A stretch of DNA of 33,762 bases from positions 1-33,762 of the forward strand of contig JAIRNA010000152.1 in the NCBI GenBank assembly GCA_031258305.1, written 5' to 3'. The number at the start of each line of letters is the position of its first letter. The stretch's first letter is position 1. The DNA comes from Treponema sp. (lineage in GTDB: Bacteria > Spirochaetota > Spirochaetia > Treponematales > Breznakiellaceae). Under the pieces are notes generated by a model. The model saw only the letters and a list, made by a program, of their open reading frames with translations, had not been told where the DNA came from and searched no databases. The position numbers were made by a program, and so were the translations under genes. Below are positions 3,762-24,030 of the stretch, piece by piece.

Positions 3762-3927
3762 AGGAACTTTTTCTTCCGCGACTCTGCCGCTCTGTTCGCT
3801 GTAGATGATCGCTTTGAGTCTTCAGGCGTGTAAATCAAGAGCGTCTTGTGAAAATAATGCCCATGTACATACGAGGTGCGGTATCGTATCCTTGTCTTTT
3901 TCCCAAAATTGCACTATTTTGTTGGTA

Positions 3928-6900: not shown

Positions 6901-7404
6901 GAACTCTTAGACGAAATTCGCCGTTCTCACGAAAAAACACTTGTCTTTAGTCAATATGTTGAAACGCTGGTCTGTCTTTCAACTATTATCCGTAATGAAT
7001 TGGGCGAGAATGTCTTGATTTACCACGGAGGTCTGTCTCAAACCGGTCGGACCGGGGTTGTTGACCGTTTCCAGTCTGACGATGGTTGCAAAATATTACT
7101 GGCGAGTCTTCGGGCCGGCGGTCTTGGGCTGAACTTAACGAGCACTTCTCAGGTGATTCATTACGATTTGTGGTACAATCCTGCTGTTGAAAACCAGGCG
7201 ACTGATCGCGCTTTCCGTATTGGGCAACGGCGTAACGTATTTGTTCACCGTTTCATCACAAAAAATACGTTCGAAGAAAAGATTGACGCACTGTTGTCGG
7301 GGAAACGAGAGTTGGCAGATATGACGGTGGGAGCCGGGGAGGCTTGGTTGTCGCGGATGAGTCACGAGGAGTTACGGGCTTTATTTAATAGAGTTGTGCA
7401 ATAA
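3928..7404 (+). CDS. SNF2-family DEAD/DEAH helicase with N-terminal SWIM zinc finger
   Basis: SWIM CDCPDNGDPCKH; SNF2 motifs DDMGLGKTIQAI, DEAHLLKN, LSGTPIENR, Q..DRAFRIGQ. Start set at 3928, not the ORF 5' end at 3805. Confidence 0.92.
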   Translation: MTRNQYGQTPWGRWFIDALDAPSGRLDRGRSYANTDKVTKLEIKDRLVKARVRGNYRPFYKVEILFPELAEKERVLGIIEKDPSLLARIAAGEMPEELLLKLKDEGIRLISSRWSDMQRQCDCPDNGDPCKHEAAVYYTLAKYIDADPRLLFTLRGLDLSALMEKFGAEPDAKIAPPFTVETDNGERRILSDQPVIPELPSCISLILSLLPQTPFGHKDLGVSLAEFYHYTAHFEMWDDADREKEEFTASHSYWKILCTAPAPAPGKELFLEQKAIDGQVTRLSVYESFLQFRSFSSADGTASYRFLFYLFKFLNILTAAGAFVPCVLLERFLYVVWKPFEGLEIVKTTLEKIAEFEPAMLKIESKKGGKRKYVTGLSVTRLLSCALLGEWVKRRYFFSQKMDEIQGLFFLGLALDVSRPAKRSLPLSIDHWLSALSVDWKAWKYRLTLWEESEKRVAPSKHNEVNSKEYNFKLSMDALLTDDQGKIQSIPLKDAAKRTGRIDVLKAPSALAHYLPELASLSSFASVSLSEERLVDFLDNAANLLSRLGVEVVFPKSLKRELKPRLVLSTNKKKQGGGLLSSMSLDEILEWKWQVAIGNSLLTEAEFAALVKQKRSLVKFHDQFVRVDAGELARLFKSAEKPAPSTRDFLKEYFSGNSVLSFDAEQIIENLFRKQDFPRPESLNAVLRPYQMQGYQWACSLLLMGFGAILADDMGLGKTIQAISVILRLKENGLLNEKTEKTLVIAPSALLENWARELAKFAPCLTIARYHGVKRRFDDSDVFLTTYQTVTRDAEKLFERKFALLIVDEAHLLKNADTRSAKTVKNLRSRFKLALSGTPIENRLEDMRSLFDFILPGYLGSAGEFKEKYRFPIEVKREKAKADELRLITAPFLMRRLKTDKAIIADLPDKVVKNEYAVLEKEQAALYESVVEETLKKSEEMRRNDGEAAPQRHVLILGLLTALKQICNHPRVFDKESPCVSKLSGKAQLLLELLDEIRRSHEKTLVFSQYVETLVCLSTIIRNELGENVLIYHGGLSQTGRTGVVDRFQSDDGCKILLASLRAGGLGLNLTSTSQVIHYDLWYNPAVENQATDRAFRIGQRRNVFVHRFITKNTFEEKIDALLSGKRELADMTVGAGEAWLSRMSHEELRALFNRVVQ

Positions 7405-7509: not shown

Positions 7510-8577
7510 ATGCTATATACTAGTAGTCAAATGACCGTTAAAGATATCGCCGAACTTGCGAAAGTTTCTATTGGAACCGTGGACCGGGTTATTTGTCACC
7601 GGGGCCGGGTGTCCGCGGAAACCAAGTCAAGGATCGAGGCAATCATTGAGAAATATCATTTTACCCCAAACCCCATGGCACGGCGGCTTGGCCGGAACCG
7701 GGCGTACCAGTTTTGCGCCTTCCTGCCCCGGAGGGATCTGGATGCCGGTTATTGGAGGCAGGCACTGGAGGGGATACAGGAAGGGGCGGCCGAGATAGCC
7801 CCTTTTGGGGTAGAGACAAAGGTTGTTGAATTTGACCGTTATAGTGTCCGGGGGATTTCCCGTGCCGCCGATTCCATGCTGGCGGTAAAACCTGATGGAA
7901 TAATTCTATCCCCCATTATGCCTGAAACAATCAAAAAAGTAATAGAAAAAATTCGGCAGAGTGGGATTCCCTGCGTGTTTTTTGACACCGACCTTGCTGG
8001 TAACGATTCCCTGTGCTCCATCGGCCAGGACTCGTTCCGGGGTGGGTATCTGGCGGGCAGGCTGATGCATCTTTTCGCGGGAAAAATAGTAAAACCGTTA
8101 GCAGTACTGAATGCCTATGGGGGGGGGGGGGCCTCCCACCGGAACGGTTTTTTACATTATGCCGGAGAACATGGCTTTTCCACGGTAGTACGGGAATATC
8201 CGGACAATGCGGGAGCTGAAATACCGGTAGCTGAAATCGCCCTTTTTCTCAAGGAGAACCCAAATCTTGCGGGTATATTTATCACCAACTGCATGGCCTA
8301 TCGTGTTGTTGATGCCGTGAAGCGGCAAAAAGGGAGGCGGACCTTTGTTCTTGTGGGGTACGATCTTATCCCAAAAAATCGGGAGCTGTTACAGGAGGGA
8401 GCGATAGACGCGGTAATCTCCCGGCACCTTAAAGAACAGGGCCGCCTTGCCTTGTTGAATCTGTACCGCCACGTTGCGTTGGAACAGCGCATACTTCCCA
8501 AAATACAAATGCCCCTGGATGTGTATTTCAGGGAAAATATTCCCATTATTGACGAACCTTTTTCAGAACCCGGTTAG
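7510..8577 (+). CDS. LacI-family transcriptional regulator with periplasmic-binding-protein-like effector domain
   Basis: HTH MTVKDIAELAKVSIGTVDRVICHRGRVSAETKSRI followed by a sugar-binding PBP fold. Alternative start at 7531. Contains the in-frame G13 tract 8119-8131. Confidence 0.92.
   Translation: MLYTSSQMTVKDIAELAKVSIGTVDRVICHRGRVSAETKSRIEAIIEKYHFTPNPMARRLGRNRAYQFCAFLPRRDLDAGYWRQALEGIQEGAAEIAPFGVETKVVEFDRYSVRGISRAADSMLAVKPDGIILSPIMPETIKKVIEKIRQSGIPCVFFDTDLAGNDSLCSIGQDSFRGGYLAGRLMHLFAGKIVKPLAVLNAYGGGGASHRNGFLHYAGEHGFSTVVREYPDNAGAEIPVAEIALFLKENPNLAGIFITNCMAYRVVDAVKRQKGRRTFVLVGYDLIPKNRELLQEGAIDAVISRHLKEQGRLALLNLYRHVALEQRILPKIQMPLDVYFRENIPIIDEPFSEPG
8119..8131 (+). repeat. Homopolymeric tract of 13 G inside the LacI-family coding sequence
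   Basis: TAT GGG GGG GGG GGG GCC, read in frame as Y-G-G-G-G-A. Confidence 0.93.
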
Positions 8578-8680: not shown

Positions 8681-8709
8681 TTGACATAGAGAACAAGGCG
8701 TGATACAGT
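8681..8709 (+). promoter_or_regulatory. Putative sigma70 promoter of the LamG-GH51-GH51 operon
   Basis: TTGACA (8681-8686), 17 bp, TACAGT (8704-8709), immediately upstream of operators. Confidence 0.75.
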
Positions 8710-8713
8710 AATT

Positions 8714-8731
8714 GATGTGTACGTACACGCA
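8714..8731. promoter_or_regulatory. LacI-type operator O1a
   Basis: GATGTGTAC|GTACACGCA, containing the perfect palindrome GTGTACGTACAC. Confidence 0.8.
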
Positions 8732-8746
8732 TTGGATCCTACCGTG

Positions 8747-8764
8747 TGCGTGTACGCTAACGCA
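8747..8764. promoter_or_regulatory. LacI-type operator O1b (perfect left half, weaker right half)
   Basis: TGCGTGTAC|GCTAACGCA; centre 33 bp from O1a. Confidence 0.65.
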
Positions 8765-8783
8765 ATACTTTTTGGAGGTTTAT

Positions 8784-9659
8784 ATGTTTAGGAAAAAAAT
8801 CAATTGCCGCCTCATCGCGGCGTTTGCAGTGCTTGCGGCGATCTTTCTCGTCGCATGTCCCAACGATGACTCCGAGCCACTCGAAGATCCACCGCCTAGC
8901 CCGCTGGTTAATTTCAAGGTAAACGACGCCGGGAATGCCTTTGAAAACACCGGGACCAATACCGAGGTGCCTGCGCCAACGGTAGTCAATGGGGAATTTA
9001 AAACCGTAAACGGTCTCAAAGTGTTTAACACCGGAGGTACCAAGAGCGACACGCAAAGTGAAATTCCCTGGTGGGAGGGGAACTATTGGGATGACTATAC
9101 AGACATCGGCTATGTTGATTTGGGGGTAGCCACAGGAAATCTGCTCGGTACTCTGGAAAGTTTTACCATCGAAACCTATCTCAAGCTGCCCGCAGATGCC
9201 CAAGTCGACAGGGTTGGTCAGTATGTGTGGGCATTTGCCGACCAAATCGCGCCGACTAATGCGGTATGGCTTAACTACCGGGAATTTACATTCCTGATTA
9301 AAGATGCCGCAAAGGACCCGACGGATGAAAGTGTGATAGCTGGATGGGACGCCGCCAGTCCCCTACACGGTTTAGACACATGGCACCATTTGCTTGTTAC
9401 CAAAGACAGTACTACCGCTGTTATTTACCTGGACGGCGAGGTGGTAGTAAATGGTCCTTCCACGTACCTTACCACAGTTTTTGCCTCCGGAACCCTTGAT
9501 ACCAACTACCTTGGGAAGCCATGCTACGATCCCGGCGTCTATGACCAGGGGCTTTTCGGTACCCTGTTCTACAGTTTTGCCATTTATGGCGAGGCTCTTA
9601 GCGCGAATCTGGTTAAAGAACTCTATCAGGATGGACCCATAAACACTCTGCGGAATTAA
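8784..9659 (+). CDS. LamG/ConA-like domain lipoprotein, putative surface glycan-binding protein
   Basis: Lipobox AIFLVAC; LamG-like FTIETYLKLPAD..., WHHLLVTKDSTTAVIYLDGE; SD GGAGG. Paralogous to 16567 and 19683 gene products. Confidence 0.8.
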   Translation: MFRKKINCRLIAAFAVLAAIFLVACPNDDSEPLEDPPPSPLVNFKVNDAGNAFENTGTNTEVPAPTVVNGEFKTVNGLKVFNTGGTKSDTQSEIPWWEGNYWDDYTDIGYVDLGVATGNLLGTLESFTIETYLKLPADAQVDRVGQYVWAFADQIAPTNAVWLNYREFTFLIKDAAKDPTDESVIAGWDAASPLHGLDTWHHLLVTKDSTTAVIYLDGEVVVNGPSTYLTTVFASGTLDTNYLGKPCYDPGVYDQGLFGTLFYSFAIYGEALSANLVKELYQDGPINTLRN

Positions 9660-9678
9660 GCCTATCCATATAGCGCAC

Positions 9679-9710
9679 AGGCTGTCCATGAAATAATTTC
9701 TGGACAGCCT
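9679..9710 (+). terminator. Long intra-operon stem-loop
   Basis: AGGCTGTCCA-TGAAATAATTTC-TGGACAGCCT, 10-bp perfect outer stem with complementary inner sequence. Confidence 0.6.
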
Positions 9711-9729
9711 CTTTGTAAAGGAAATAAGT

Positions 9730-11760
9730 ATGAAAGATAGAGAGAATCCGCGTGTAATGGGGCGAATGGTCCTTATGGCGCTTGTTGTTTTAGTCCCCAT
9801 CCTCCTTCGGGGGTTTTCCGGCTGTCAAAGCATGGGCGCGGGATCGGGCGGAAGCCGTGAAATCACGATAAACCTGGATCTTCAAAAAACCGGACCCGAA
9901 ATTGCCGCTACTTTTTACGGTATCTTTTACGAGGACATAAACTATGCGGCGGACGGCGGACTGTACCCGGAACTAGTCAGAAACCGCTCCTTTGAAGCCA
10001 AATCGCCGGATCCCAGTCCTGTGATCAAAACTCTTTTTGGCTGGGAAGCAAATTACCGGAAGCTGGGCGGCGAAGGCAAGGTTGCCGCCGGTACGGGCAC
10101 GCCCCTCTTTGATACTAACCCCACGTATGTTACGGTAACCGTAACGAGCGCACCCTATGCCATCGCCAATATGGGCTATTCCCTTAAACCCGATATGCCA
10201 TTTATGGAAGGGGCGGTGTATAATTTTTATCTTTACCTCCGTAATCAAAACTATTCCGGAAACATCGTCTGCTCTCTGGAAAACAGGGACGGGGAGATGG
10301 TTTCCAATACCGTAACCCTTACCCCGGAGGCCGTCGGCTGGCGAAAATACGGCACCTATACCTTTACCTCGGACTATACCGGCAAGGGTGCCCTGGTGCT
10401 ACGCTGTGAGGGAACGGGCCAATTCGACCTGGATTTCGTTTCCCTCATGCCTGTAGATACCTGGGGGTACGGTGAAAGCGCCTGGCCTTACGGCGGCCTG
10501 AGGCGGGATTTGGTCGAAGTCCTGGCGGATTTGAAACCGGGTTTTTTACGTTTCCCCGGCGGCTGTATCGTTGAAGGGGCGTACCGGCATGAAACGGCCT
10601 ATAACTGGAAGGACACTATCGGGGAACCGGAAAAACGCCGTGAAAACAGCAATCTCTGGGGTTACATGATGTCCTACGGTCTTGGATTCCACGAATACTT
10701 CCAGTTGGCCGAGGAACTGGGCGCGGAACCTGTTCCGGTACTCAACGCCGGAATCTTGTGCCAGGCTCGCAACAGGGGCGGGAACACCGAACCCGATTAC
10801 CGTCCCGGTGTTCCCGAATTCGATCAACTCATTCAGGATTATCTTGATTTGATAGAATACGCCAACGGAAACCCGGCAACGGTGTGGGGCGCAAAACGGG
10901 CGGACAATGGACACAGTGCGCCTTTTAATCTGAAAATGATCGGCATCGGTAACGAAAACTGGGGCCCAAACTACTGGCGGAATTTTAAGGCTATACGGGA
11001 AGCGGTGCTGGCCGCCTACCCTGATATCAAGGTGATTACCACTACCGGCCCTCTAGCTTCAGGCCCTATAAACAACGAGGCGTGGCTCCATATAAACGCT
11101 TCTTACAGGGACGCAATTGTGGACGAACATTACTACATGGAGCCCGCATGGTTTTTGACAAACACGACACGTTACGATTCTTACCCAAGGAGCGGAGTCG
11201 AAATCTTTGTCGGCGAATACGCCGCCCACGAAACCAACCGCGCCAATACCTGGAACGCGGCCCTTTCCGAAGCTGCGTACATTACCGGACTTGAGCGCAA
11301 CGCCGACTTGGTAAAAATGTCCTCTTACGCTCCTTTGTTCGCACGACAGGGAATGCCCCAGTGGGCGCCGGACCTAATCTGGTTTGACGGCGCCGGAATA
11401 ACCAGTCTAACACCGAGTTACCACATCCAGAAACTCTTTTCAAACAATACCGGAAAGGAAGTCTTGAGTCCGGAAAAAGCGCCTGCCAAAAAAGATATGT
11501 TTCACGCCTCAAGTGTGGACCGGGAAAAGGGTCTTGTATACACCAAACTTGTCAACCCGTACGAAAAAGAACTGACCGTCACCCTGAATTACGCCAACTG
11601 TTCCGTTCAGGGTGAGGCGGAACTAACAACCCTGTCGGGAGACCCATCCGCCCGGGAAGTCCACATTGAAGAAGGCATTGTCTCTGTAGGGGATAATATG
11701 ATAACATTGAATCTTGCACCCTGTTCCACAGTGGTGTTGAGAATCAAAATTACTCTATAG
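9730..11760 (+). CDS. GH51 alpha-L-arabinofuranosidase-like lipoprotein
   Basis: Lipobox LRGFSGC; FYGIFYEDINYAADGGLYPELVRNRSFE, RFPGGCIVEG, IGIGNENWG, VGEYAAHE typical of GH51. Confidence 0.88.
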   Translation: MKDRENPRVMGRMVLMALVVLVPILLRGFSGCQSMGAGSGGSREITINLDLQKTGPEIAATFYGIFYEDINYAADGGLYPELVRNRSFEAKSPDPSPVIKTLFGWEANYRKLGGEGKVAAGTGTPLFDTNPTYVTVTVTSAPYAIANMGYSLKPDMPFMEGAVYNFYLYLRNQNYSGNIVCSLENRDGEMVSNTVTLTPEAVGWRKYGTYTFTSDYTGKGALVLRCEGTGQFDLDFVSLMPVDTWGYGESAWPYGGLRRDLVEVLADLKPGFLRFPGGCIVEGAYRHETAYNWKDTIGEPEKRRENSNLWGYMMSYGLGFHEYFQLAEELGAEPVPVLNAGILCQARNRGGNTEPDYRPGVPEFDQLIQDYLDLIEYANGNPATVWGAKRADNGHSAPFNLKMIGIGNENWGPNYWRNFKAIREAVLAAYPDIKVITTTGPLASGPINNEAWLHINASYRDAIVDEHYYMEPAWFLTNTTRYDSYPRSGVEIFVGEYAAHETNRANTWNAALSEAAYITGLERNADLVKMSSYAPLFARQGMPQWAPDLIWFDGAGITSLTPSYHIQKLFSNNTGKEVLSPEKAPAKKDMFHASSVDREKGLVYTKLVNPYEKELTVTLNYANCSVQGEAELTTLSGDPSAREVHIEEGIVSVGDNMITLNLAPCSTVVLRIKITL

Positions 11761-11785
11761 TAATTGGAAATTGTAAGGAAAAACT

Positions 11786-13282
11786 ATGACGAATAAAACA
11801 AAACTGCTTTTGGATAAGGATTCCGTTATCGGTCCGGTAGGGAAACGGCTTTATTCCACCTTTGTTGAACATCTGGGCCGTTGTGTCTATGAAGGCATCT
11901 ACGAACCCGGGCATCCCTGTGCAGACAAGGATGGTTTCCGCGAGGACGTGCGGGAACTTGTCCGGGAACTGCACTTTGGCGCGATCCGCTACCCCGGCGG
12001 CAACTTTGTGTCAGGGTACAACTGGCGAGACGGCATTGGCCCGCTCAATGAGCGGCCGGTGCGACTGGACTATGCGTGGTCTTCGATTGAACCGAACCAA
12101 ATCGGCATCAATGAATTCTGCGATTACGCAAAGTCGGTAGGAAGCGAGGTCATGTACGCGGTGAATATAGGCACAGGTACGCCTCAAGAAGCGGGTTATG
12201 TGGTGGAATACGCCAACTTTCCCCAAGGGACCTTTTTTTCCGATCTGCGCGTAAAAAACGGCCATAAAGAACCCCACAACATAAAACTATGGTGTATCGG
12301 CAATGAAATGGACGGGCCCTGGCAGATATGCCACCTGGATGCCCGCGATTACGGCAAGAAAGCCCTTGAAACGGCAAAAATCATGAAGTGGGCCGACCCA
12401 TCCATTGAACTCGCGGTATGCGGCAGCGCATCGTCGTTGCAGCCGACTTTTCCCGAATGGGACCGCATTGTGCTGGAGTACACCTACGATCAAGTGGACT
12501 ATCTTTCCCTGCACCGGTATTACGAAAACTTCGGAAACGAACTCGATTTTCTCGCGTCCTATCACGAGATGGACAAATTTATCAGATCCGTCGTGGCAAC
12601 CGCGGATTATGTAAAAGCGGTTAAACGCTCAAAAAAGACCGTGATGCTCTCGTTTGATGAATGGAACATCTGGTATCAGACGAAGACCCAGTTAAAACCA
12701 TGGAAGTTCGCTCCTCATATTCTCGAAGACAACTATTCCCTCCTTGACGCGCTCGCCTTCGGTGGTCTCCTGTGCACACTGATCAATAACGCCGACCGGG
12801 TGCGCATAGGTTGCCTTGCCCAGATGGTAAACGTTATTGCGCCTATCTTTACCGAAAAGGGAGGCAAGGCGATCAGGCAGACGATCTTTTATCCTTTTGC
12901 GATGGCCGCGAAAAATTGTACCGGCGACGCACTTCGGGTAAGAGGAAAAACGCTGGTACTGGAAAGCAATGCCTATGGCCCGGTGTCGGCGCTCCCCTGC
13001 GCGGCCACATGGGACGCGGAACGGGGTGAAATCAGTGTTATCTGCGTGAATATTTCTGCCGAAAATCAGACTGTGGAATTTGATATGCGTTCCTTCGGGA
13101 GGGTAAAACCGCTTGAACATACCGTGATCCATGGCGGTGATCTTTCTGCGGTAAACACCCTCACGGATCCCGACCGGGTAAAGCCCGAAAGCCGTATCTG
13201 TCATGGAGCTGTTACGGACACGCCGGAAGTGGAACTGGAACCCATGTCGTTTCATCTGTTCAAATTTGCCGTGGCAGTCTGA
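11786..13282 (+). CDS. abfA: GH51 intracellular alpha-L-arabinofuranosidase
   Basis: STFVEHLGRCVYEGIYEP, RYPGGNFVSGYNWRDGIGP, WCIGNEMDGPWQ, LSFDEWNIWY; no signal peptide. Confidence 0.93.
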   Translation: MTNKTKLLLDKDSVIGPVGKRLYSTFVEHLGRCVYEGIYEPGHPCADKDGFREDVRELVRELHFGAIRYPGGNFVSGYNWRDGIGPLNERPVRLDYAWSSIEPNQIGINEFCDYAKSVGSEVMYAVNIGTGTPQEAGYVVEYANFPQGTFFSDLRVKNGHKEPHNIKLWCIGNEMDGPWQICHLDARDYGKKALETAKIMKWADPSIELAVCGSASSLQPTFPEWDRIVLEYTYDQVDYLSLHRYYENFGNELDFLASYHEMDKFIRSVVATADYVKAVKRSKKTVMLSFDEWNIWYQTKTQLKPWKFAPHILEDNYSLLDALAFGGLLCTLINNADRVRIGCLAQMVNVIAPIFTEKGGKAIRQTIFYPFAMAAKNCTGDALRVRGKTLVLESNAYGPVSALPCAATWDAERGEISVICVNISAENQTVEFDMRSFGRVKPLEHTVIHGGDLSAVNTLTDPDRVKPESRICHGAVTDTPEVELEPMSFHLFKFAVAV

Positions 13283-13447
13283 GTTGGTCATTCCCGAAAA
13301 CAACTTCGTTAGGAACTGTTGTCCGTGTCCTCTATAAAAGTGGGAGGGCCGCGACGGGAGTCGATATTTCACATTTATATCAGGGAGAACCTCCCGCCCG
13401 AAAGAAACGGCCAGGATAAATTAAATAAAGAATTCCCCGCCCTCCAA

Positions 13448-13457
13448 GGGGGGGGGG
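13448..13457. repeat. Intergenic poly-G tract (10 G) within a GC-rich inverted repeat
   Basis: CCCCGCCCTCCAAGGGGGGGGGGTTAACCCTATAGGG between convergent genes. Confidence 0.85.
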
Positions 13458-13472
13458 TTAACCCTATAGGGA

Positions 13473-14741
13473 TTAAAAGACTCCCATTTCAAAAGTGATA
13501 GGGATCGCGATGCCTATCTGAGTACCCTCGTAGGTGGGTATCTGTACCACTACACCAGTCTGTATAGAAGCATTGGTGAGAAAGTTGGTAACCTGAACGC
13601 CGGCGGCTATGTCGACGCGGGGTTTTTTGTCTTCATAGTAAATCCCATTGACATACTTACCAATATTGTACGCCGACACATTCAAAAGACTGGTCAGGTA
13701 GACATTATGCACATATTTAAGCTGACCGCCAATTTTATAATTGGAGATAGCTTTGCCATAGGTACGATCGGTTCCAAGCTGTATATCCCCCAGAATACGG
13801 AATGAAAAGGGATTGAATAGACTAACTTCGACTCCCATAGGAATTGACACGGCGCCCTTGTCTGAGGTAAAGCGAGATCCCCACATAGTATCGCACTGGC
13901 TCAAATAATAGTGAAATCCCATCCTGAAGTCAAAACCAGGCAGGGCGGTAATATTAGCCGCCGCCTGAATCTGGCTGGTAGCGCCGTCCCGTTTATTGTA
14001 ATTCCCCGTAATTTTACCGTCAGGATCAAACCCAATCATCTGGAGCCGGAAGAATCCGATCCCTTTCAGATCATACCGGGCGCCCACCTGGATGGTCTGG
14101 AGATAATCAAGAGGATCCATCGTGGAATCAATGCCTTTAAAGTTTATATCAACGGTAAAGGTACCAAAGTAACCCTCAAATAGAGCGCCTACAGGTATGG
14201 ATGTCCCCGCCGAATACTCCGGTGTACCCGGTATAAAGGTACTCTCCTTAATGGTTGACTGCATCATGTTGTCGTAACCGGCAAAAAATTCATCCTCCGC
14301 AAGTCCGTTGGAATCGGTGTACCGGACCCGGTCAAAAAAATCAAGCGGCCAGCCGGTATCCCTGTCGTAGTTGTATTTCCCTACTCTCACAAAGAGCTGG
14401 TTCACCGGCCGTATCCAGAGGCTGTAGGAATAAAAGTCTCCGTTCTCTATCCATGACGAAAAAATGTTGGCGCCATCATCGTTAGTCATCTTCATCATGG
14501 TAGCCATTTCCGCGTCGAACCCAGCTGTCCGTTCCCCGTTGCTGGCGTTTACGCCGAACTTGGTCCACCAGATATGGGCGTTTATGGACCCGTCAGAGTC
14601 TACGTCCGTAGCTCCGGGGTTTATAGGCCGCTCAAAGGGGGTGAGCTGGGCCCGGCCCCACCACCAGAAACGGACCTGGGCGGACAAAGAACCCGCGACC
14701 AGCACGAAAAACACAGTCAAGAGAATTGTTTTCATTTTCAT
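13473..14741 (-). CDS. Putative outer-membrane beta-barrel protein/porin
   Basis: Signal peptide MKMKTILLTVFFVLVAGSLSAQ, alternating amphipathic strands, C-terminal Phe; SD GGAGG on minus strand. Confidence 0.7.
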   Translation of the reverse strand: MKMKTILLTVFFVLVAGSLSAQVRFWWWGRAQLTPFERPINPGATDVDSDGSINAHIWWTKFGVNASNGERTAGFDAEMATMMKMTNDDGANIFSSWIENGDFYSYSLWIRPVNQLFVRVGKYNYDRDTGWPLDFFDRVRYTDSNGLAEDEFFAGYDNMMQSTIKESTFIPGTPEYSAGTSIPVGALFEGYFGTFTVDINFKGIDSTMDPLDYLQTIQVGARYDLKGIGFFRLQMIGFDPDGKITGNYNKRDGATSQIQAAANITALPGFDFRMGFHYYLSQCDTMWGSRFTSDKGAVSIPMGVEVSLFNPFSFRILGDIQLGTDRTYGKAISNYKIGGQLKYVHNVYLTSLLNVSAYNIGKYVNGIYYEDKKPRVDIAAGVQVTNFLTNASIQTGVVVQIPTYEGTQIGIAIPITFEMGVF

Positions 14742-14769
14742 TGCATTTCCTCCAAAGATAATATAAATA

Positions 14770-14787
14770 TGTGTACGTACACGCACT
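14770..14787. promoter_or_regulatory. LacI-type operator O2 (beta-barrel promoter)
   Basis: TGTGTACGTACACGCA at 14770-14785. Confidence 0.8.
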
Positions 14788-14792
14788 TTATG

Positions 14793-14821
14793 ATATTACA
14801 ACAATATGTTTAAGCTGTCAA
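14793..14821 (-). promoter_or_regulatory. Putative sigma70 promoter of the beta-barrel gene
   Basis: Minus strand TTGACA (14821-14816), 17 bp, TAATAT (14798-14793). Confidence 0.75.
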
Positions 14822-14850
14822 GGATTTTTATTAAAATTTAAAAAAAATCA

Positions 14851-14880
14851 TTGACAATGTTGACAACAAGGATTTATACT
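14851..14880 (+). promoter_or_regulatory. Putative sigma70 promoter of the GH43 operon
   Basis: TTGACA (14851-14856), 18 bp, TATACT (14875-14880). Confidence 0.7.
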
Positions 14881-14898
14881 AAAAAGTCGATGAAATAT

Positions 14899-14916
14899 TA
14901 CGTGTGCGTACACGCA
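14899..14916. promoter_or_regulatory. LacI-type operator O3 (GH43 operon)
   Basis: TACGTGTGC|GTACACGCA. Confidence 0.8.
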
Positions 14917-14946
14917 TAAGGACGGTCCCTTTTTGGAGGTAACTGA

Positions 14947-16476
14947 ATGGAAAGTAAAATTAGTTTTTGTATACCCCTGGCGATCCTTACCGCTGGGATT
15001 AGTATTTCGTGCGGTACTATGGAAGAATTTGTCATACCCGGCGCGGGCTTTTCCTTTGATGATGCCCCACCGCCCCGATTCGGTCCGGTGTCGGTACATG
15101 ATCCTTCGGTGTTTCCGGCGGACGACGTGTTCTACGTCATCGGTTCCCACCTTGCCATGGCAAAAACCGGGGACTTTATCCAGTGGAACCAGGTAAGTTC
15201 GGACTGGAACGGCAGGCCCAATATACTTTATCCTGCGGATAACCCGGACCCGTCTGTCCAGACCATGAAGGAGCAGATTGCCGATGTCATGCGGGGGCAA
15301 CGGAACCCTTTGGGATTTTTTGCCAGCGACATACACCTCATGCCCGATGGGAAATTCTACCATTACTACAGCATAACCGCTTCGTGGTATTGTAGCGCCA
15401 TAGGACTGGCTGTCGGTGATTCCGCCGAAGGTCCCTATGTTACCCAGGGGCTTATCGTCCGTTCCGGCGAAGCGGCGGACGACAGCAAAACCCCCGACGG
15501 CACAAGCGCCTGGATACAAATCAGGTTTCCCAACTGCATCGACCCCCAGGCGTTTTTTGACAACGACGGGAAATTCTGGCTTGTGTACGGTTCCTGGAGT
15601 GGCGGTATTTTTCTGCTTGAACTTGATCCCTCTACGGGAATGTTGAAAGAGGGAGCCGCCATCAATGCCGAAAGCAACGGTTATGGCAGAAGATTGATCC
15701 GCAACGCCCATGGAGCGGTAGAGGGGCCGTACATAATTTACAGTCCCCAATCAGGATATTACTACCTGTTCGTCTCCTTCGGCGGACTGGCCGCCGCGGG
15801 AGGGTACAACATGCGGGTATTTCGTTCCACCAGCCCCGACGGGCCCTACGAGGACACGGTGAACCATGATATAGGAAAGGAATTCCGGCACACAAGCCTT
15901 AAGGATTACGGCGTCAAAATCATGGGCGGCTATCAGTTTAGCCGACTTGGAGGCCCGCCGGGTCTGGGGAATGTCGGGTACTTGTCCCCCGGGCACAACA
16001 GCGTCTGGTACGATGCCGATACGGGCAGGTACTTTTTGATATACCATCAGCGGTTTTCCGGCAGGGGCGAATATCACGAAGTCCGGGTGAGGGAGCTGTT
16101 TGTAACCGAAGACAACTGGTTTGCGGCATCCCCCTTTCGGTACGACGGCGGCAGGGTCCGGAGTTTTATCCCTGATCAGCTAACTGGTGACTGGAGATTA
16201 ATCAACCACGGCAGGGACAATAACACAACGCCCCACGAATCCCGGATATATCAATTCCGTGGAGACGGAAAAATAACCGAAGATTCCGGCAAGGATGTGG
16301 GAATCTGGGAACTTGGCGATGACGGCAAGACCGCCAATATTACAGTGGATGGTATTTTGTACAAGGGCGTATTTCTGCGCTGTTGGGACGATGAGGATAA
16401 TAGCTGGGTACAGGCCTTTACCGCGTTGTCAGGAGAAGGGGTTGCCCTTTGGGGCGCCGGAGCGGCACCGAAGTAA
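14947..16476 (+). CDS. GH43 arabinanase-like lipoprotein (Abn2-type layout: beta-propeller plus C-terminal beta domain)
   Basis: Lipobox AGISISC; VHDPSVF, FFASDIHLMPDGKFYHYYS, NCIDPQAFFDNDGKFWLVYGSWSGGIF, C-terminal GDWRLINHGRDNNTT... Confidence 0.88.
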   Translation: MESKISFCIPLAILTAGISISCGTMEEFVIPGAGFSFDDAPPPRFGPVSVHDPSVFPADDVFYVIGSHLAMAKTGDFIQWNQVSSDWNGRPNILYPADNPDPSVQTMKEQIADVMRGQRNPLGFFASDIHLMPDGKFYHYYSITASWYCSAIGLAVGDSAEGPYVTQGLIVRSGEAADDSKTPDGTSAWIQIRFPNCIDPQAFFDNDGKFWLVYGSWSGGIFLLELDPSTGMLKEGAAINAESNGYGRRLIRNAHGAVEGPYIIYSPQSGYYYLFVSFGGLAAAGGYNMRVFRSTSPDGPYEDTVNHDIGKEFRHTSLKDYGVKIMGGYQFSRLGGPPGLGNVGYLSPGHNSVWYDADTGRYFLIYHQRFSGRGEYHEVRVRELFVTEDNWFAASPFRYDGGRVRSFIPDQLTGDWRLINHGRDNNTTPHESRIYQFRGDGKITEDSGKDVGIWELGDDGKTANITVDGILYKGVFLRCWDDEDNSWVQAFTALSGEGVALWGAGAAPK

Positions 16477-16504
16477 CAGACGGCTTTAAAAACTAGTTCT
16501 TTAG

Positions 16505-16533
16505 CGGAAGCCATTCGAAAACGTGAGCTTCCG
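16505..16533 (+). other. Intra-operon stem-loop between the two GH43 genes
   Basis: CGGAAGC (16505-16511) / GCTTCCG (16527-16533). Confidence 0.4.
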
Positions 16534-16566
16534 AACAACCCAAGTCAATATTTGGAGGAAACAATT

Positions 16567-19530
16567 ATGACCTTAAGAATATCTTTAACATACCGCGGTT
16601 TAACTGCGGTGATGGTAATGTGTGTCTTTTTCTTGGCCGGATGTTCAGATCCGGTAAATCTCTCGCCCCCGCCGCCCGAACCTGACCCGGTGTCTCCCAT
16701 AATCAGCGTCCAGCCCCAGAGCTCCGTTTATGCCGTCGGCGCGACACCTGCCGATCTGTCGATAACAGCTTCGGTAAGCGATGGGGGAAGTCTGACTTAT
16801 CAGTGGTACGGTACGACGGCAAACTCCGCAACAGGCGGCACGGCGATCCATGATGCGGTAAACGCACGTTATACTCCACCTACCGGAACTGCCGGAACGA
16901 CATATTATTACGTGGTGGTTACCAATACCAAAAACGGAAAAACGAAGACGGCGACAAGCGATGCGGCGCGGATCGTGGTCTCATCTCCCGATGCGGACCC
17001 GGTGCCCCCAGAAATTACCTGTCAGCCCAAGAACGCATCCTATTACATCGGAGAAACGACCGTCCCTCTGGAGGTAGAAATTTCCCTAAATGACGATGGA
17101 GTGATAAGCTATCAGTGGTACTCCAATACGGAAAATGCCGCCACAGGCGGCACGGCGATTCAGGATGCGGTGAATGCACGTTATATGCCTCCTGTCGTAA
17201 GACCCGGAACGATGTATTATTACGTGGTGATTACCAATACCAAAAACTCAAAAACAGAGATGGTAACAAGCGCGGTGGCAGGGATTGTGGTTTCCGCGAG
17301 TCCGTTAAAGGTAAAATATGTAGTTAACGAAGAGAGTAACGGCTTTGTAAACGTTGCGCCTTCAGACGGGAGTATCTATACCGCCACGGTAATAGGCGGT
17401 TCTTTTGGGACAGTAAACGGACTCAAAGTTTTTGACACCGGTGGTATAGACAGCGGTACGGACATTACCGCGCCCTGGGATTCCAACACCACATGGGATC
17501 ATTATACCAATGTGGGCTATGTCGATTTGGGACCAAGGGTTGGCGATTTGCTTTGTGATCTGGAAGATTTTTCTATCGAAACTTACGTGTACGTTCCATC
17601 TGACTATCAAATTGTGTCCCTGGGTAACTATGTCTGGACATTTGCTGACAGCGATAACGAGCCGTCTAACGCGGTATGGTTCCGTTACCGTGAGGGAAAT
17701 TATACCATCAAAAAAGATGGAACAGATGAGTCTGTAGAGAACGGTTATAATACCATATCCCTCGGCTCATGGCATCAGATACTGGTTAGCAAAAACAACA
17801 GTACAGCGGCAATTTATGTGGACGGTTCCCTCCTTAAAACCGGAACCTCTGCAACCATTACCGCCGCCTTTCAGGCGGGTACTTTTACCTATAACTACCT
17901 CGGAAAGCCCGCCTATAACGCCGACGAATACCTCCATAATTCACGGTTCTACAGTTTCAGCCTTTATGACAAGGCGTTTTCCGCGGCTGAAGTAAGCGCG
18001 CTCTATGCGGAAGGTCCCATGACGGACTTGAGAGGCGGACAGACCCGGCCCGGTGCGGGCTTTACGTTCAGTGATGCCGCCACGCCGAGTTTTTCCAATG
18101 TAACCGTACATGACCCGTCGATATTTTACACGGGTAGCGAGTACCGCGTTATCGGTTCCTTCCTCGCGTCAGCCAGAACCACGGATTTTATAAAATGGTA
18201 TTCTGTCCAGGGAGACGGAAATACATCCAACTACAGCAGTAAAAAATACTACCCCAAGGATAACGCTGATTCGGGTATACAGACCATGGCGCAGCAGATT
18301 GAGGACGTTCAGCGCGGTGAGGATTCTGACACAGGGTGGAACTTTTTTGCCAGCGACATACACAAGATGCCTAACGGAAAGTTCTATCACTACTATAGCA
18401 TTACCACATCATGGAAATGCAGCGCTATCGGCGTAGCTATTGCCGACACCGTTGAGGGGAATTATGTAACCCAGGGACTCTTTGTCCGTTCAGCCGAGGC
18501 CGGGAATAATAAAGCTCCGAACGGGATGACTACCTGGTCGTATGATAGTCATCCCAACTGCATCGACCCCCAGGCGTTTTTTGACAAGGATGGAAATTTC
18601 TGGCTTGTGTACGGTTCCTGGAGCGGTGGTATCTTCATCTACGAGATTGATCCCACCACAGGAAAACCAAAAAATAACTCCACGATTAACAACCAAAATG
18701 CCGGTTACGGCAAAAGGTTAATCGCCAACAGGCACTCGGCGATAGAGGCGCCCTACATTCTCTACAATCCCCAATCGAACTATTATTACCTGTTCACATC
18801 TTTTGGCGAATTGGGAACCAATGGGGGCTACAATATGCGGATGTTCCGTTCCCGCAATCCCGACGGACCCTATGAGGACGCGGAACATACCGACTTGGCT
18901 TCCAACAATCTGCATCCTACCCAGGACAATACCTACGACTTCAGGAAGTACGGTGTCAAAATCATGGGCGGTTATCAGTTTGCCCATTTGGAGGGCGAGA
19001 AGGGTACAAAGACCACCGGTTACCGGGCGCCCGGCCACAACAGCGCCTGCTATGAAGAGGCCACCGGCAAGTACTACCTCATTCATCATACCCGTTTTGT
19101 GGGCGGCAAAAACAACATATATGAGGCCCACGAGGTGCGGGTACGGGAACTCTTTCTAACCGAAGATAACTGGCTGGCTACCTCTCCTTTCCGGTATGAC
19201 GCGGGGACGGTGCGTACGTTTACCGCCACCCAGCTTGCCGGAACATGGAAGATTATCAACCACGCACGAGATGTGAACACCACAGAACATACTTCCCAAA
19301 CCTATCGGTTCTTGACCAACGGTACAATTTCCAATGAAGGCGGTACGACGGCGGGGACCTGGGAATTGGGTAGTGACGGCAAGACCGCTCACATTACAAT
19401 CGGCGGCGTATTGTATAAGGGCGTATTCCTGCGCTGTTACGACGAAGACAATACAATGTGGGTACAGGCGTTCACTGCCCTGTCCGATACCGGTATTGCC
19501 CTTTGGGGTGCGGGAGGAGCATTCAACTAA
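16567..19530 (+). CDS. Multidomain lipoprotein: two Ig-like repeats, LamG domain, GH43 arabinanase-like domain
   Basis: Lipobox FFLAGC; two repeats with YQWY...ATGGTAI.DAVNARY.PP...YYYVV.TNTKN; LamG FSIETYVYVPSD; GH43 VHDPSIF...NCIDPQAFFDKDGNFWLVYGSWSGG. Confidence 0.88.
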   Translation: MTLRISLTYRGLTAVMVMCVFFLAGCSDPVNLSPPPPEPDPVSPIISVQPQSSVYAVGATPADLSITASVSDGGSLTYQWYGTTANSATGGTAIHDAVNARYTPPTGTAGTTYYYVVVTNTKNGKTKTATSDAARIVVSSPDADPVPPEITCQPKNASYYIGETTVPLEVEISLNDDGVISYQWYSNTENAATGGTAIQDAVNARYMPPVVRPGTMYYYVVITNTKNSKTEMVTSAVAGIVVSASPLKVKYVVNEESNGFVNVAPSDGSIYTATVIGGSFGTVNGLKVFDTGGIDSGTDITAPWDSNTTWDHYTNVGYVDLGPRVGDLLCDLEDFSIETYVYVPSDYQIVSLGNYVWTFADSDNEPSNAVWFRYREGNYTIKKDGTDESVENGYNTISLGSWHQILVSKNNSTAAIYVDGSLLKTGTSATITAAFQAGTFTYNYLGKPAYNADEYLHNSRFYSFSLYDKAFSAAEVSALYAEGPMTDLRGGQTRPGAGFTFSDAATPSFSNVTVHDPSIFYTGSEYRVIGSFLASARTTDFIKWYSVQGDGNTSNYSSKKYYPKDNADSGIQTMAQQIEDVQRGEDSDTGWNFFASDIHKMPNGKFYHYYSITTSWKCSAIGVAIADTVEGNYVTQGLFVRSAEAGNNKAPNGMTTWSYDSHPNCIDPQAFFDKDGNFWLVYGSWSGGIFIYEIDPTTGKPKNNSTINNQNAGYGKRLIANRHSAIEAPYILYNPQSNYYYLFTSFGELGTNGGYNMRMFRSRNPDGPYEDAEHTDLASNNLHPTQDNTYDFRKYGVKIMGGYQFAHLEGEKGTKTTGYRAPGHNSACYEEATGKYYLIHHTRFVGGKNNIYEAHEVRVRELFLTEDNWLATSPFRYDAGTVRTFTATQLAGTWKIINHARDVNTTEHTSQTYRFLTNGTISNEGGTTAGTWELGSDGKTAHITIGGVLYKGVFLRCYDEDNTMWVQAFTALSDTGIALWGAGGAFN
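16690..17301 (+). repeat. Two tandem Ig-like repeats, about 300 bp each, recognisable at DNA level
   Basis: GCAACAGGCGGCACGGCGATCCATGATGCGGTAAACGCACGTTAT vs GCCACAGGCGGCACGGCGATTCAGGATGCGGTGAATGCACGTTAT. Confidence 0.8.
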
Positions 19531-19587
19531 GGGAACTTTCCGGGAATCCCAACCAGGATTTTCGGAATTCCCCCTCGATACGAAATG

Positions 19588-19624
19588 GGTCTTTTCCAAA
19601 ACCCTAGAGGTTTTGGAAAAGACC
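19588..19624. terminator. Perfect 16-bp inverted repeat with 5-nt loop, putative bidirectional terminator
   Basis: GGTCTTTTCCAAAACC-CTAGA-GGTTTTGGAAAAGACC between convergent genes ending at 19530 and 19683. Confidence 0.75.
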
Positions 19625-19682
19625 AAATACATAGAAATCAATCTTTGGTTTTTTTCTTAGCGCCTTGCGTTGAAGGTAAAAC

Positions 19683-20549
19683 TCAATTGCCCTCGTTCAA
19701 TTTCGCCAACGGTCCCTCCGCGTAGAGGGTAGCAACTTCCTTGGCGGAAAGAGCGCCGGAATAAATGCTAAAGCTGTGAAACTTGGCGTTATGGAGCGGA
19801 TAGTCGGGAGGATAACAGGATTTTCCAAGGTAATTCGCGGTCAGTGTATTTCCTTTATACGAAGTTGAACGGATCTGTATCGGTCCAAAGGCAACCTGGA
19901 CGCCGTTTACATAGATAATCGTATTCCAACTGTCCTTGACAACCACCAAATGGGCCCACGAACCGGAATACGGAATAAACGAACCATATCCATCATCCGG
20001 CACTATGGCGTCCTGAGCGTTAAAAACAAACTGATCGATACCATTCAGGATCACATGGAAACTTGTATGTCTGGCGCTGAACCACATGGAATTTCCCGGG
20101 TCTCTCCCGTTGGAAAAGGACATGAAAAAGTTGCCAATGGCAAGATAGTCGTAATCGGCCGGGACCCATACGTATGTCTCAATGGAAAATGTCGGCAAAC
20201 TCTGCAACAGGGCGCCTGTCTCGGCTCCCAAATCGACATAACCAACATTCACGTATTCATCGATAGTGTCTACCTCGTTCCAGCCTACGGTTACCCTGTT
20301 CCCACTTGGTTCACCGCCAAGGTCAATAACCTTGAAGCTGTTTTCTTCAACAATCGTCGCGCCGTCCACCAGTTTGGCGGTATACGTGTTCCCGTCCGGT
20401 GGGGCCGTGTTGACAAAGGCGGTACCTTCAGCATTGGACTCGTATCGGAGTCTGAGTTCCGCCGGTCCGCTGTCGGGTGTGCTGGCACAGCCATACAATA
20501 CCAACCCAAGGGCACAAAGCCCCATAGCAAGTAATCCTACTCTTTTCAT
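19683..20549 (-). CDS. LamG/ConA-like domain lipoprotein, putative surface glycan-binding protein
   Basis: MKRVGLLAMGLCALGLVLYGCAS lipobox; NVGYVDLGAETGALLQSLPTFSIETYVWVPADYDY. Confidence 0.8.
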   Translation of the reverse strand: MKRVGLLAMGLCALGLVLYGCASTPDSGPAELRLRYESNAEGTAFVNTAPPDGNTYTAKLVDGATIVEENSFKVIDLGGEPSGNRVTVGWNEVDTIDEYVNVGYVDLGAETGALLQSLPTFSIETYVWVPADYDYLAIGNFFMSFSNGRDPGNSMWFSARHTSFHVILNGIDQFVFNAQDAIVPDDGYGSFIPYSGSWAHLVVVKDSWNTIIYVNGVQVAFGPIQIRSTSYKGNTLTANYLGKSCYPPDYPLHNAKFHSFSIYSGALSAKEVATLYAEGPLAKLNEGN

Positions 20550-20609
20550 TTTAATCTCCTTTAAAGATTCAGTGTTTTACGGAACAGGACGTTCCGTTTA
20601 ATAATGCCT

Positions 20610-20627
20610 TATGTGAACGTACACGCA
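20610..20627. promoter_or_regulatory. LacI-type operator O4 (LamG gene)
   Basis: TGTGAAC|GTACACGCA at 20612-20627. Confidence 0.8.
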
Positions 20628-20638
20628 AGACATTAATT

Positions 20639-20667
20639 ATTTTATAACAGGTTTTTTGAGTTGTCAA
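20639..20667 (-). promoter_or_regulatory. Putative sigma70 promoter of the minus-strand LamG gene
   Basis: Minus strand TTGACA (20667-20662), 17 bp, TAAAAT (20644-20639). Confidence 0.7.
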
Positions 20668-20699
20668 CAGAAAAATATGGTAAAAACGTAAATTTGTGC

Positions 20700-20728
20700 T
20701 TGACAGTCAAATCTTGTTGTGCTAATCT
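20700..20728 (+). promoter_or_regulatory. Putative sigma70 promoter of the ABC transporter operon
   Basis: TTGACA (20700-20705), 17 bp, TAATCT (20723-20728). Confidence 0.7.
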
Positions 20729-20731
20729 GAT

Positions 20732-20749
20732 AATGTGGACGTACACGCA
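20732..20749. promoter_or_regulatory. LacI-type operator O5 (ABC operon)
   Basis: TGTGGAC|GTACACGCA at 20734-20749. Confidence 0.8.
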
Positions 20750-20770: not shown

Positions 20771-22270
20771 ATGAAAAGAAATCAGAACAAAGCGGCGCTG
20801 GCCTTATGTGTCTGCGTTGCAATAGCCTTGACAGGCTGTAGGAAATCCGGTAAGACGACTGCTGGTTCATCGGCAAAGCCGGTATTGACGGTAAGTGTAT
20901 TCGCCCAGGAACATGAACAGGTCATGTACCGCGAGGTAATCAAAAGGTTTGAAGATGACAATAATGTAACGGTAAACTTTCAGGTGGCCGGCGATCAATA
21001 TTGGCCCGAACTGGAGGCGATGCTTACCGCCAACACAGCTCCGGATGTATTTTATCTGGGCATCCCCGATATTAAGCGCCGTGTCTGGGCTGGAAAAGTC
21101 GCCGCCCTTGACGAACTTCTTGATACTGCCTCGCTCGGTAAAATCTGGACTGATTCACTAGATCTTTACCGTTATGATGAGGGGACAAACACTCTGGGCA
21201 CGGGCAAAATTTATGCGTTGCCAAAGGATTTTTCCGCCGTCTCCATGACGGTGAACCGGGCAATTGTTGAAAAACGGAGAACGGCTATCGAATCGCTGGT
21301 AGCCGGCGGTACGTTGCCGTTCTTCCCGGAAACCGACGCGAAGGGTAATCTTCCGGTATACACCTTTACGGAATTTGCCAATCTCTGTAAAATCCTTACA
21401 TTTGATGATCCATCGCTGCCTTCGACGGCCGGCGGTATTAAGGTCTACGGTACGCACCTGTGGGAAGATTTCTGTCTTCAGCCTTTTGTCTGGGGGGCAG
21501 GCGGTGATTATCTTGACCCTACGCATACAAAAGCACTTTTCGATTCTTCCGAATTTATCGAAGGGTACGAAGGTTTTATGAAGATAGTAGAACTGGGCGG
21601 TTCAGGTTCATCAACCGATGAAACAAGCGGATACCTGAAATTCCTGGCCGGTCGTTGCGCCTATTTCCCTTGTGGCACCTGGGATGTGGGAGCTTTTGAG
21701 TCTATTGAGAAGGATAGCGCCATCAACCCGGACAAGTCGTGGTTCGATTTTGATCTTGCCCCCTGGCCTATCAGCGACCGGTACAGAAATCTTTCTATCG
21801 AAGATCGTCAAGATAAATGGTTTGGTAGGGTGGATTCCATAGGGTATGCGGTTTCTACTCAATCCAAAAACAAAGAACTTGCCGCAAAACTGGCCTATGT
21901 CCTGAGTGCCGATGAAGTGGTTCAGCGGTTCCTTGCGAAACAGGGCGGGCAGGTGCCGAATATCGTTTCTATGGCGGAGGGCGAGTACCTTACCGATAAC
22001 AGCTATTTCCCTGAATCACGAAAAGTTTTTGTGAATATGCTCTCCGGCCAAAACGGGCACCGTATTCCTACAACCTATACGTTCAATACCATGTGGTACT
22101 CCGATGCATTCCTTCCGGGTTTAGGCGGCATCTGGGCGTATTACGAAAAAATCAACAATGGCAATCCACCGGTGAGTGTGGCCGATTACTGCAAAAGCAT
22201 CGCGGCAAAAGCCCAGTCTTTACTCAATGAGTCAATTGAGGATGAAAAAGCTTTAAATCCTAATTTGTAA
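20771..22270 (+). CDS. CUT1-type ABC transporter sugar-binding lipoprotein
   Basis: Lipobox IALTGC; family-1 extracellular solute-binding protein pattern; SD GGAGG. Confidence 0.9.
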   Translation: MKRNQNKAALALCVCVAIALTGCRKSGKTTAGSSAKPVLTVSVFAQEHEQVMYREVIKRFEDDNNVTVNFQVAGDQYWPELEAMLTANTAPDVFYLGIPDIKRRVWAGKVAALDELLDTASLGKIWTDSLDLYRYDEGTNTLGTGKIYALPKDFSAVSMTVNRAIVEKRRTAIESLVAGGTLPFFPETDAKGNLPVYTFTEFANLCKILTFDDPSLPSTAGGIKVYGTHLWEDFCLQPFVWGAGGDYLDPTHTKALFDSSEFIEGYEGFMKIVELGGSGSSTDETSGYLKFLAGRCAYFPCGTWDVGAFESIEKDSAINPDKSWFDFDLAPWPISDRYRNLSIEDRQDKWFGRVDSIGYAVSTQSKNKELAAKLAYVLSADEVVQRFLAKQGGQVPNIVSMAEGEYLTDNSYFPESRKVFVNMLSGQNGHRIPTTYTFNTMWYSDAFLPGLGGIWAYYEKINNGNPPVSVADYCKSIAAKAQSLLNESIEDEKALNPNL

Positions 22271-22286
22271 ACGTTATCGGTGTATC

Positions 22287-23225
22287 ATGGAGAAGTTGAA
22301 AGTGCAAAAAATTAACAGAATTCGCCTGAACGATAATATATGGGGATATGCGTTTGTCCTACTACCGCTTGTGGGAATGGCCGTCTTCGTGGTTATTCCC
22401 TTCTGCATGACCCTGTATTCCAGTTTCACCAACTGGCCCCTAGGGCAACCCATCCGGTCGGCGAAGTGGGTAGCCTTAAAAAATTACCTCGACATGTTCA
22501 ACAATCCGCTTTTCTGGCAGAGTCTTGGGAATACCTTTTATTATATGATTGGTATTCCCATCGGCATCATTTTGGCGCTTTTTTTTGCGTCTCTGATGAA
22601 CCGGGGTACGACGGGAGAGCAGGTGTTCCGAGTGATTTACTACACCCCGGTCATTACCAGTGTTGTGGCGGTGAGTTTTATTTTTCAGCGCCTTTTTATG
22701 ACCGATGGCGGTGTTATCAATATGTATCTTCAGTCACTGGGAATAACAAATCCACCCAAATGGCTTTCGGACCCGCATTTTACCAAATGGGTTATCATTA
22801 TTATGAGTGTGTGGAAAGGGCTGGGCGGATCAATCATCCTGTATGTCGCGGGTATGCAGGGTATTTCGTCTAGTTATTATGAAGCGGCGCGGATTGACGG
22901 CGCGGGATCTTTTCGTATTTTTCGAAGCATTACATTTCCCCTTCTTATGCCGATTACATTCTATATGGTGGTTACCAGCATCATCGGGGGCGCACAGATT
23001 TATGTGGAGCCCCGCCTCATTTTTACCGGTAATGGTCCGGGTAACAGTACTTTCAGCACGGTTATCTATCTGTATGATCATACCTTTCGTAATTCCCGGG
23101 CCGGTTACGGTTCGGCGATAGCGATTGTATTAAGCACGATTGTATTTTTAGTAACCGCCATTCAATTGTATCTTAACGGACGGGAGGATAAACTTGACCG
23201 TGAAAAAGTCAAAAAGAATCGCTAA
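22287..23225 (+). CDS. ABC sugar transporter permease (MalF/UgpA-like)
   Basis: Membrane protein with EAARIDGAGSFRIFRSITFPLLMP (EAA loop). Confidence 0.93.
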   Translation: MEKLKVQKINRIRLNDNIWGYAFVLLPLVGMAVFVVIPFCMTLYSSFTNWPLGQPIRSAKWVALKNYLDMFNNPLFWQSLGNTFYYMIGIPIGIILALFFASLMNRGTTGEQVFRVIYYTPVITSVVAVSFIFQRLFMTDGGVINMYLQSLGITNPPKWLSDPHFTKWVIIIMSVWKGLGGSIILYVAGMQGISSSYYEAARIDGAGSFRIFRSITFPLLMPITFYMVVTSIIGGAQIYVEPRLIFTGNGPGNSTFSTVIYLYDHTFRNSRAGYGSAIAIVLSTIVFLVTAIQLYLNGREDKLDREKVKKNR

Positions 23226-24030
23226 TGCCGCAATATTTCTGTTTCTTGTCTTGGGTTCCATAGTTATGCTGTACCCGTTCATCTGGATGATCTTTACGTC
23301 TATGAAGCCCAAGATGCACATCTACCTTTCGGGATTGTTGCCAAAGGTATGGGATTTTTCGAGCTATTCCCAAATTTGGAAAGAAATACCCCTATTCCGG
23401 GGTTTTCTCAATACTCTCCTGTACTCAATTCCACCAGTATTCATTGGTTCCCTTGTTTCCGTTGCCGCGGCCTTTGCACTGGCAAAAATTCATTTTAAGG
23501 GACGTAACACGGTTTTTTTGCTACTCCTGAGCATGATCATGATTCCCTTTCCGGCGATTATGATACCCCAGTTTGTCTTGTTCAGTGACATGGGCATTCT
23601 ACAGACGCCCTGGCCGCTCATCCTGCCCAAACTTACCGGTAACGTACTGATGATATTTTTCCTGAAACAATATATGGTAAATATCCCGGATTCCCTGATT
23701 GAAGCGGCGAAACTTGACGGATGCAACTACTTCCGCATTTATCACAGTATAGTGCTGTACATGGTAGGACCGGCCCTGGCGGCCCACGGTGTTCTGTGGT
23801 TTATCGGCGCATGGAACGATTATCTTGCACCAACCATCTTCATTCAAGACGAGGTATGGCAACCGGTAACGGTGATGATCGCTAAATTTAACGCGCAATA
23901 CGCGATTAACACCCATGTTCCCCGTATGATGGCCGGATCAGTCATACTCCTGGTACCGGTATTGGTTATCTACGGTATATTCCAGAAGTGGATAATCAAA
24001 TCGGTCATGTTTTCCAGCGTAAAAGAATAA
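23194..24030 (+). CDS. ABC sugar transporter permease (MalG/UgpE-like)
   Basis: PFIWMIFTSMKP, EAAKLDGCNYFRIYHSIVLYMVGPAL; overlaps upstream permease by 32 bp; TTG or GTG start. Confidence 0.9.
   Translation: MTVKKSKRIANAAIFLFLVLGSIVMLYPFIWMIFTSMKPKMHIYLSGLLPKVWDFSSYSQIWKEIPLFRGFLNTLLYSIPPVFIGSLVSVAAAFALAKIHFKGRNTVFLLLLSMIMIPFPAIMIPQFVLFSDMGILQTPWPLILPKLTGNVLMIFFLKQYMVNIPDSLIEAAKLDGCNYFRIYHSIVLYMVGPALAAHGVLWFIGAWNDYLAPTIFIQDEVWQPVTVMIAKFNAQYAINTHVPRMMAGSVILLVPVLVIYGIFQKWIIKSVMFSSVKE

Follow-up and report, generated by a model that had tools for sequence, protein, structure and literature searches.

A survey of LacI-family regulons covers seven phyla, listed without Spirochaetes, and describes 72% of the surveyed regulators as autoregulated (PMC4052901). 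In Bifidobacterium, the LacI-family regulator AraQ controls araBDA and, in some genomes, also arabinofuranosidases and arabino-oligosaccharide transporters (PMC5928203). Bacillus subtilis AraR, which combines a GntR helix-turn-helix (HTH) with a LacI-type sensor, controls arabinose catabolism, transport, and arabinan degradation; its eight boxes are distributed over five promoters, some of them doubled (PMC4218819). We found no description in the literature of a spirochaete-wide LacI-type arabinose repressor, nor of a LacI regulon in termite-gut-type spirochaetes.

The locus described here belongs to an uncultured, termite-gut-type Treponema (2.48 Mb, 158 contigs, 93% complete) and lies on contig C93; the window is the whole stretch of DNA that was analyzed, 33,762 nucleotides long. 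Six similar palindromic sites accompany five transcription units next to a gene for a LacI-family protein. We put at about 0.86 the probability that these sites are operators of the adjacent LacI protein (7531 to 8577), which would act as an arabinose-responsive repressor of the cassette until released by sugar. The features of the locus are as follows.

7531 to 8577, plus strand: predicted LacI-family repressor of 348 amino acids from the ATG at 7531, with LacI HTH and Peripla_BP_4 domains; reading frame open from 7447
8681 to 8709, plus strand: promoter 1, TTGACA-17-TACAGT, 10 of 12 consensus matches
8714 to 8731, plus strand: operator 1, GATGTGTACGTACACGCA, 4 bp after the −10 of promoter 1
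8747 to 8764, plus strand: operator 2, TGCGTGTACGCTAACGCA, second leader site, 33 bp center to center from operator 1
8784 to 9659, plus strand: unit 1, LamG-domain lipoprotein-like protein (Laminin_G_3), 38% identical to a G019 protein that has a perfect operator upstream
9730 to 11760, plus strand: unit 1, GH51-type alpha-L-arabinofuranosidase (ASD1_dom, 203 bits; Alpha-L-AF_C), with a 63% identical G019 ortholog that has its own operator
11786 to 13282, plus strand: unit 1, second GH51-type arabinofuranosidase (Alpha-L-AF_C, 145 bits)
13473 to 14741, minus strand: unit 2, secreted 422-amino-acid protein with signal peptide and terminal Phe; 57% identical G019 ortholog behind a perfect operator
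14768 to 14785, minus strand: operator 3, TATGTGTACGTACACGCA, serving the minus-strand gene that starts at 14741
14899 to 14916, plus strand: operator 4, TACGTGTGCGTACACGCA, after TTGACA-18-TATACT and serving the plus-strand gene at 14947
14947 to 16476, plus strand: unit 3, GH43 enzyme with a GH43_C domain (Pfam)
16552 to 19530, plus strand: unit 3, LamG, GH43, and GH43_C enzyme (Pfam)
19683 to 20549, minus strand: unit 4, LamG lipoprotein-like protein (Pfam)
20610 to 20627, minus strand: operator 5, TATGTGAACGTACACGCA, heading unit 4
20732 to 20749, plus strand: operator 6, AATGTGGACGTACACGCA, 5 bp after the best-scoring −10
20771 to 24030, plus strand: unit 5, ABC transporter made up of a solute-binding protein and two permeases (SBP_bac_1/8, BPD_transp_1), with 78, 81, and 86% identical G019 orthologs behind an operator

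The original prediction had claimed six shared palindromic sites, and all six are present, well above chance. The full 18-mers start at 8714, 8747, 14768, 14899, 20610, and 20732 and differ from the ideal TGCGTGTACGTACACGCA at 3, 3, 2, 2, 3, and 4 positions, respectively. Three of the predicted positions (8714, 8747, and 14899) stand, while 14770, 20612, and 20734 start two bases too far into the left arm. Dinucleotide shuffles give an expectation of 0.01 sites with no more than three mismatches to the ideal; the window has five, and only the site at 20732, with four mismatches, falls outside this limit. Every operator contains one exact copy of the half-site GTACACGCA, and these six copies are the only ones in the window. 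A position weight matrix (PWM) built solely from relatives' sites returned exactly these six window sites at a threshold of 10 bits (scores of 19 to 26 bits) and none other. All six are even palindromes of 18 bp with a central CG. The predicted consensus was right, because the ideal itself occurs as a perfect palindrome in the relatives G019 and G048. A chance or otherwise nonregulatory repeat, for which nothing speaks except the short length of the sites, has a negligible probability and is refuted by the shuffle count, by promoter-proximal placement, and by conservation in other genera.

The five cassette promoters match TTGACA/TATAAT at 10 or 11 of 12 positions, each with a TTGACA-type element, and the operators start 4, 9, 18, 11, and 5 bp after the −10 in transcription units 1 to 5, respectively. 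With a promoter of this type and an operator within 4 to 18 bp at each unit, the sites do cover all five cassette units, as predicted. The accompanying claim, that every site lies just downstream of a sigma70 promoter, is correct for five; the site at 8747 is a second operator with no promoter of its own, located in the same leader 33 bp downstream of 8714 and 37 bp from the −10. An even palindrome with a central CG, positioned 4 to 18 bp after the −10 at five sites, is what is looked for in a LacI-type operator, and a protein bound there would block initiation or promoter clearance. The paired sites are 131 and 122 bp apart; DNA looping between them was considered and is not claimed.

The regulon had been called private, a description that we abandon. 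The source genome was scanned by pattern searches; one of the patterns gave 12 forward matches, compared to 3 for a reversed control. Close matches in promoter positions were found only on the window contig and on contig C22, where two operators, TGCGTGGACGTTCACGCT (1837) and TGCGTGAACGTTTATGCA (1926), precede araB-araA-araD (FGGY kinase, L-arabinose isomerase, and L-ribulose-5-phosphate 4-epimerase by NCBIfam). A TTGACA-17-TACAAT promoter lies 7 bp ahead of the first, and the second occupies the leader upstream of the ribosome site; 8714/8747 have this two-operator layout too. A PWM made solely from the six window sites matched exactly these two sites in 20 kb. The genome-wide scan that had been called for thus revealed sites elsewhere at araBAD, while the other placed near matches of at least 12 bits outside the window and C22 are all inside open reading frames (ORFs). 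Near matches inside ORFs on C38, C43, C74, C108, C109, C121, and C142 were treated as chance, and weaker matches occur at C1:9962 (11.6 bits) and on C36, C143, and C154. Beyond this genome, the association of the motif with ara genes is conserved at the level of both the family and the order.

The adjacent regulator has an N-terminal LacI HTH (PF00356, 53 bits against a cutoff of 27, and 57 bits in the genome search) and a C-terminal periplasmic-binding-protein-like sensor (PF13407, Peripla_BP_4, 111 bits); it matches PDB entry 3gbv, a putative LacI-family regulator (E value, 7e-31). Translation probably starts at the ATG at 7531, since homologs align from that Met. Just upstream, TTTACT-18-TATACT is a possible promoter of the gene's own. 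Its −10 precedes the start by only ∼12 bases and no clear ribosome site is seen in the window between 7476 and 7531, so the LacI mRNA may be nearly leaderless. An SNF2/SWIM helicase gene (3805 to 7404), unrelated in content to the regulon, lies directly upstream of the LacI gene.

Homologs were searched for in 60 genomes, the source genome included. A LacI homolog is present in 30 and araA in 25, and many genomes have both genes no more than 15 kb apart (G010, G011, G025, G026, G028, G029 twice, G044, and G048, as well as G050, G051, G056, and G057). Upstream regions of 150 bp per gene were scored with a PWM from source-genome sites only, at a threshold of at least 14 bits. An operator lies no more than 70 bp from the gene's own start for 8 of 26 LacI homologs but for only 14 of 508 other ORFs, a contrast that is if anything understated because the 508 include some true targets (p = 2e-6, a guide only, as relatives are not independent samples). 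Among the homologs with an operator at their own gene, L042 and L045 share a clade with the window LacI (95/91 support). Similar sites precede araB in G026 and G028 and the binding proteins of CUT2-type sugar transporters in G002, G003, G010, G011, G024, and G025, the latter ∼10 kb or less from ara genes in all six genomes but G024. Close LacI orthologs occur in G024 and G021, but without sites in the vicinity of their genes, and araA is missing from G021. A scan of the collection for LacI returned only four loci, two of them in Treponema MAGs. Two matches in G018 (C192 and C145), inside a DNA polymerase gene and an aldehyde-dehydrogenase-like gene, were left uncounted.

Because homologs carry the same operator before their own genes, the adjacent LacI is the leading candidate for reading the sites, and to that extent the original assignment is upheld; its qualification is a possible coreader elsewhere in the genome. 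This paralog (L049; G000:C47, 11134 to 12222) is 46% identical to the window LacI, belongs to the same subfamily, and has a near-identical hinge helix, and it could be imagined to read the sites alone or together with the window LacI. We consider that improbable. The recognition helix VS(I/V)GTVDR is common to all aligned homologs except the C47 paralog: L039 differs by a single Ile/Val change, whereas the paralog alone has Thr in place of Ile, unlike every operator-linked homolog. Moreover, there is no operator-like site in the 18.8 kb surrounding the paralog gene, and none of the window or C22 targets is next to it.

Another conceivable reader is a Bacillus-like AraR of the GntR type, since the B. 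subtilis AraR box, At(T/A)tGTaCGTAcaa(A/T)T, contains the TGTACGTACA core that the window operators have as well (PMC4218819). The arms differ, however, being TGCG/CGCA in the operators and ATTT/AAAT in the AraR box, and no full-length GntR-type AraR was found in the 93%-complete source genome, which makes this reading very improbable. The only two GntR-domain proteins there, from frames of 135 and 253 amino acids, are too short to be an AraR complete with a LacI-type sensor. Control of the cassette by the adjacent LacI is very probable.

In G019, which belongs to another genus, cassette orthologs are found on four contigs (L158 to L161), each with an operator: the GH51 enzyme, the transporter, the 422-amino-acid protein, and the LamG protein, at the identities given above, plus GH43 genes. 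Their operators are TGCGTGTACGTACACGCA itself or a one- or two-base variant, with a TTGACA promoter whose −10 lies 3 to 9 bp upstream. No LacI of the window LacI's subfamily was detectable in this 74%-complete assembly, and this negative result, given the operators, is the main loose end.

We infer binding and the sign of control from established LacI biology together with the gene content of the regulon. A LacI dimer would bind the 18-bp palindrome TGCGTGTACGTACACGCA at the transcription start or immediately beyond it and, once bound, would block initiation or promoter clearance at each unit. L-Arabinose or a close derivative, bound in the Peripla_BP_4 domain, would release the repressor, and joint induction of arabinofuranosidases, GH43 enzymes, arabino-oligosaccharide uptake, and, on the second contig, araB-araA-araD would follow. 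Judged from gene content only, L-arabinose or such a derivative is the most likely effector. An arabino-oligosaccharide or another pentose, rather than free L-arabinose, is an unlikely but still credible choice. LacI proteins are able to sense oligosaccharides, the window encodes oligosaccharide handling, and its type of solute-binding protein is common for oligosaccharides; against this, the same sites precede the araBAD operon, and the neighbors of homologs include araA and monosaccharide transporters of the CUT2 type, so that the monosaccharide or its first products are favored.

The first GH51 enzyme (9730 to 11760) looks secreted or membrane anchored, and the second (to 13282) has no obvious signal peptide; the adjacent pair suggests outside and inside steps. 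The 422-amino-acid protein (13473 to 14741) is possibly an outer membrane porin-like barrel. It has no Pfam match, its AlphaFold model (pLDDT of 30) gives no usable fold, and relatives were found in only 3 of the 59 other genomes searched and in none of the viral contigs.

Compared with the described systems, the window regulator is like the surveyed local LacI sugar regulons in its HTH and sugar sensor, its even 18-bp palindrome with central CG, its near-promoter placement, and its carbohydrate targets. Unlike the autoregulated majority of that survey, it is without an operator at its own gene (PMC4052901); the best PWM score upstream of the LacI gene in the source genome is 0.7 bits. It resembles AraQ, going by the published description of that regulator's targets, in family and in arabinose genes, control of araB-araA-araD being predicted here from the two C22 operators. 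AraQ, in contrast, also governs central glycolysis and is a proposed activator of some genes, and no such sites were seen here (PMC5928203). With AraR it has in common the doubled-box layout, similar targets, and the TGTACGTACA core, whereas the DNA-binding domain (GntR in AraR, LacI here) and the operator arms differ (PMC4218819). The common core may reflect convergence, or it may simply be what any short palindrome centered on CG tends to produce. We regard it as an even question whether a spirochaete-wide LacI arabinose repressor has converged on the AraR-like core and doubled-box layout with an unrelated DNA-binding domain.

As sugar regulons go, this one is well supported, of an ordinary kind, and lineage-wide. 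For the use of hemicellulose arabinose in termite-gut-type spirochaetes, a regulator, an operator, and a regulon can now be proposed. The shared operator explains how scattered genes, for secreted enzymes, uptake, and araBAD, could switch together, and the core that recurs in the Bacillus ara boxes is a modest instance of possible convergence that can be checked.
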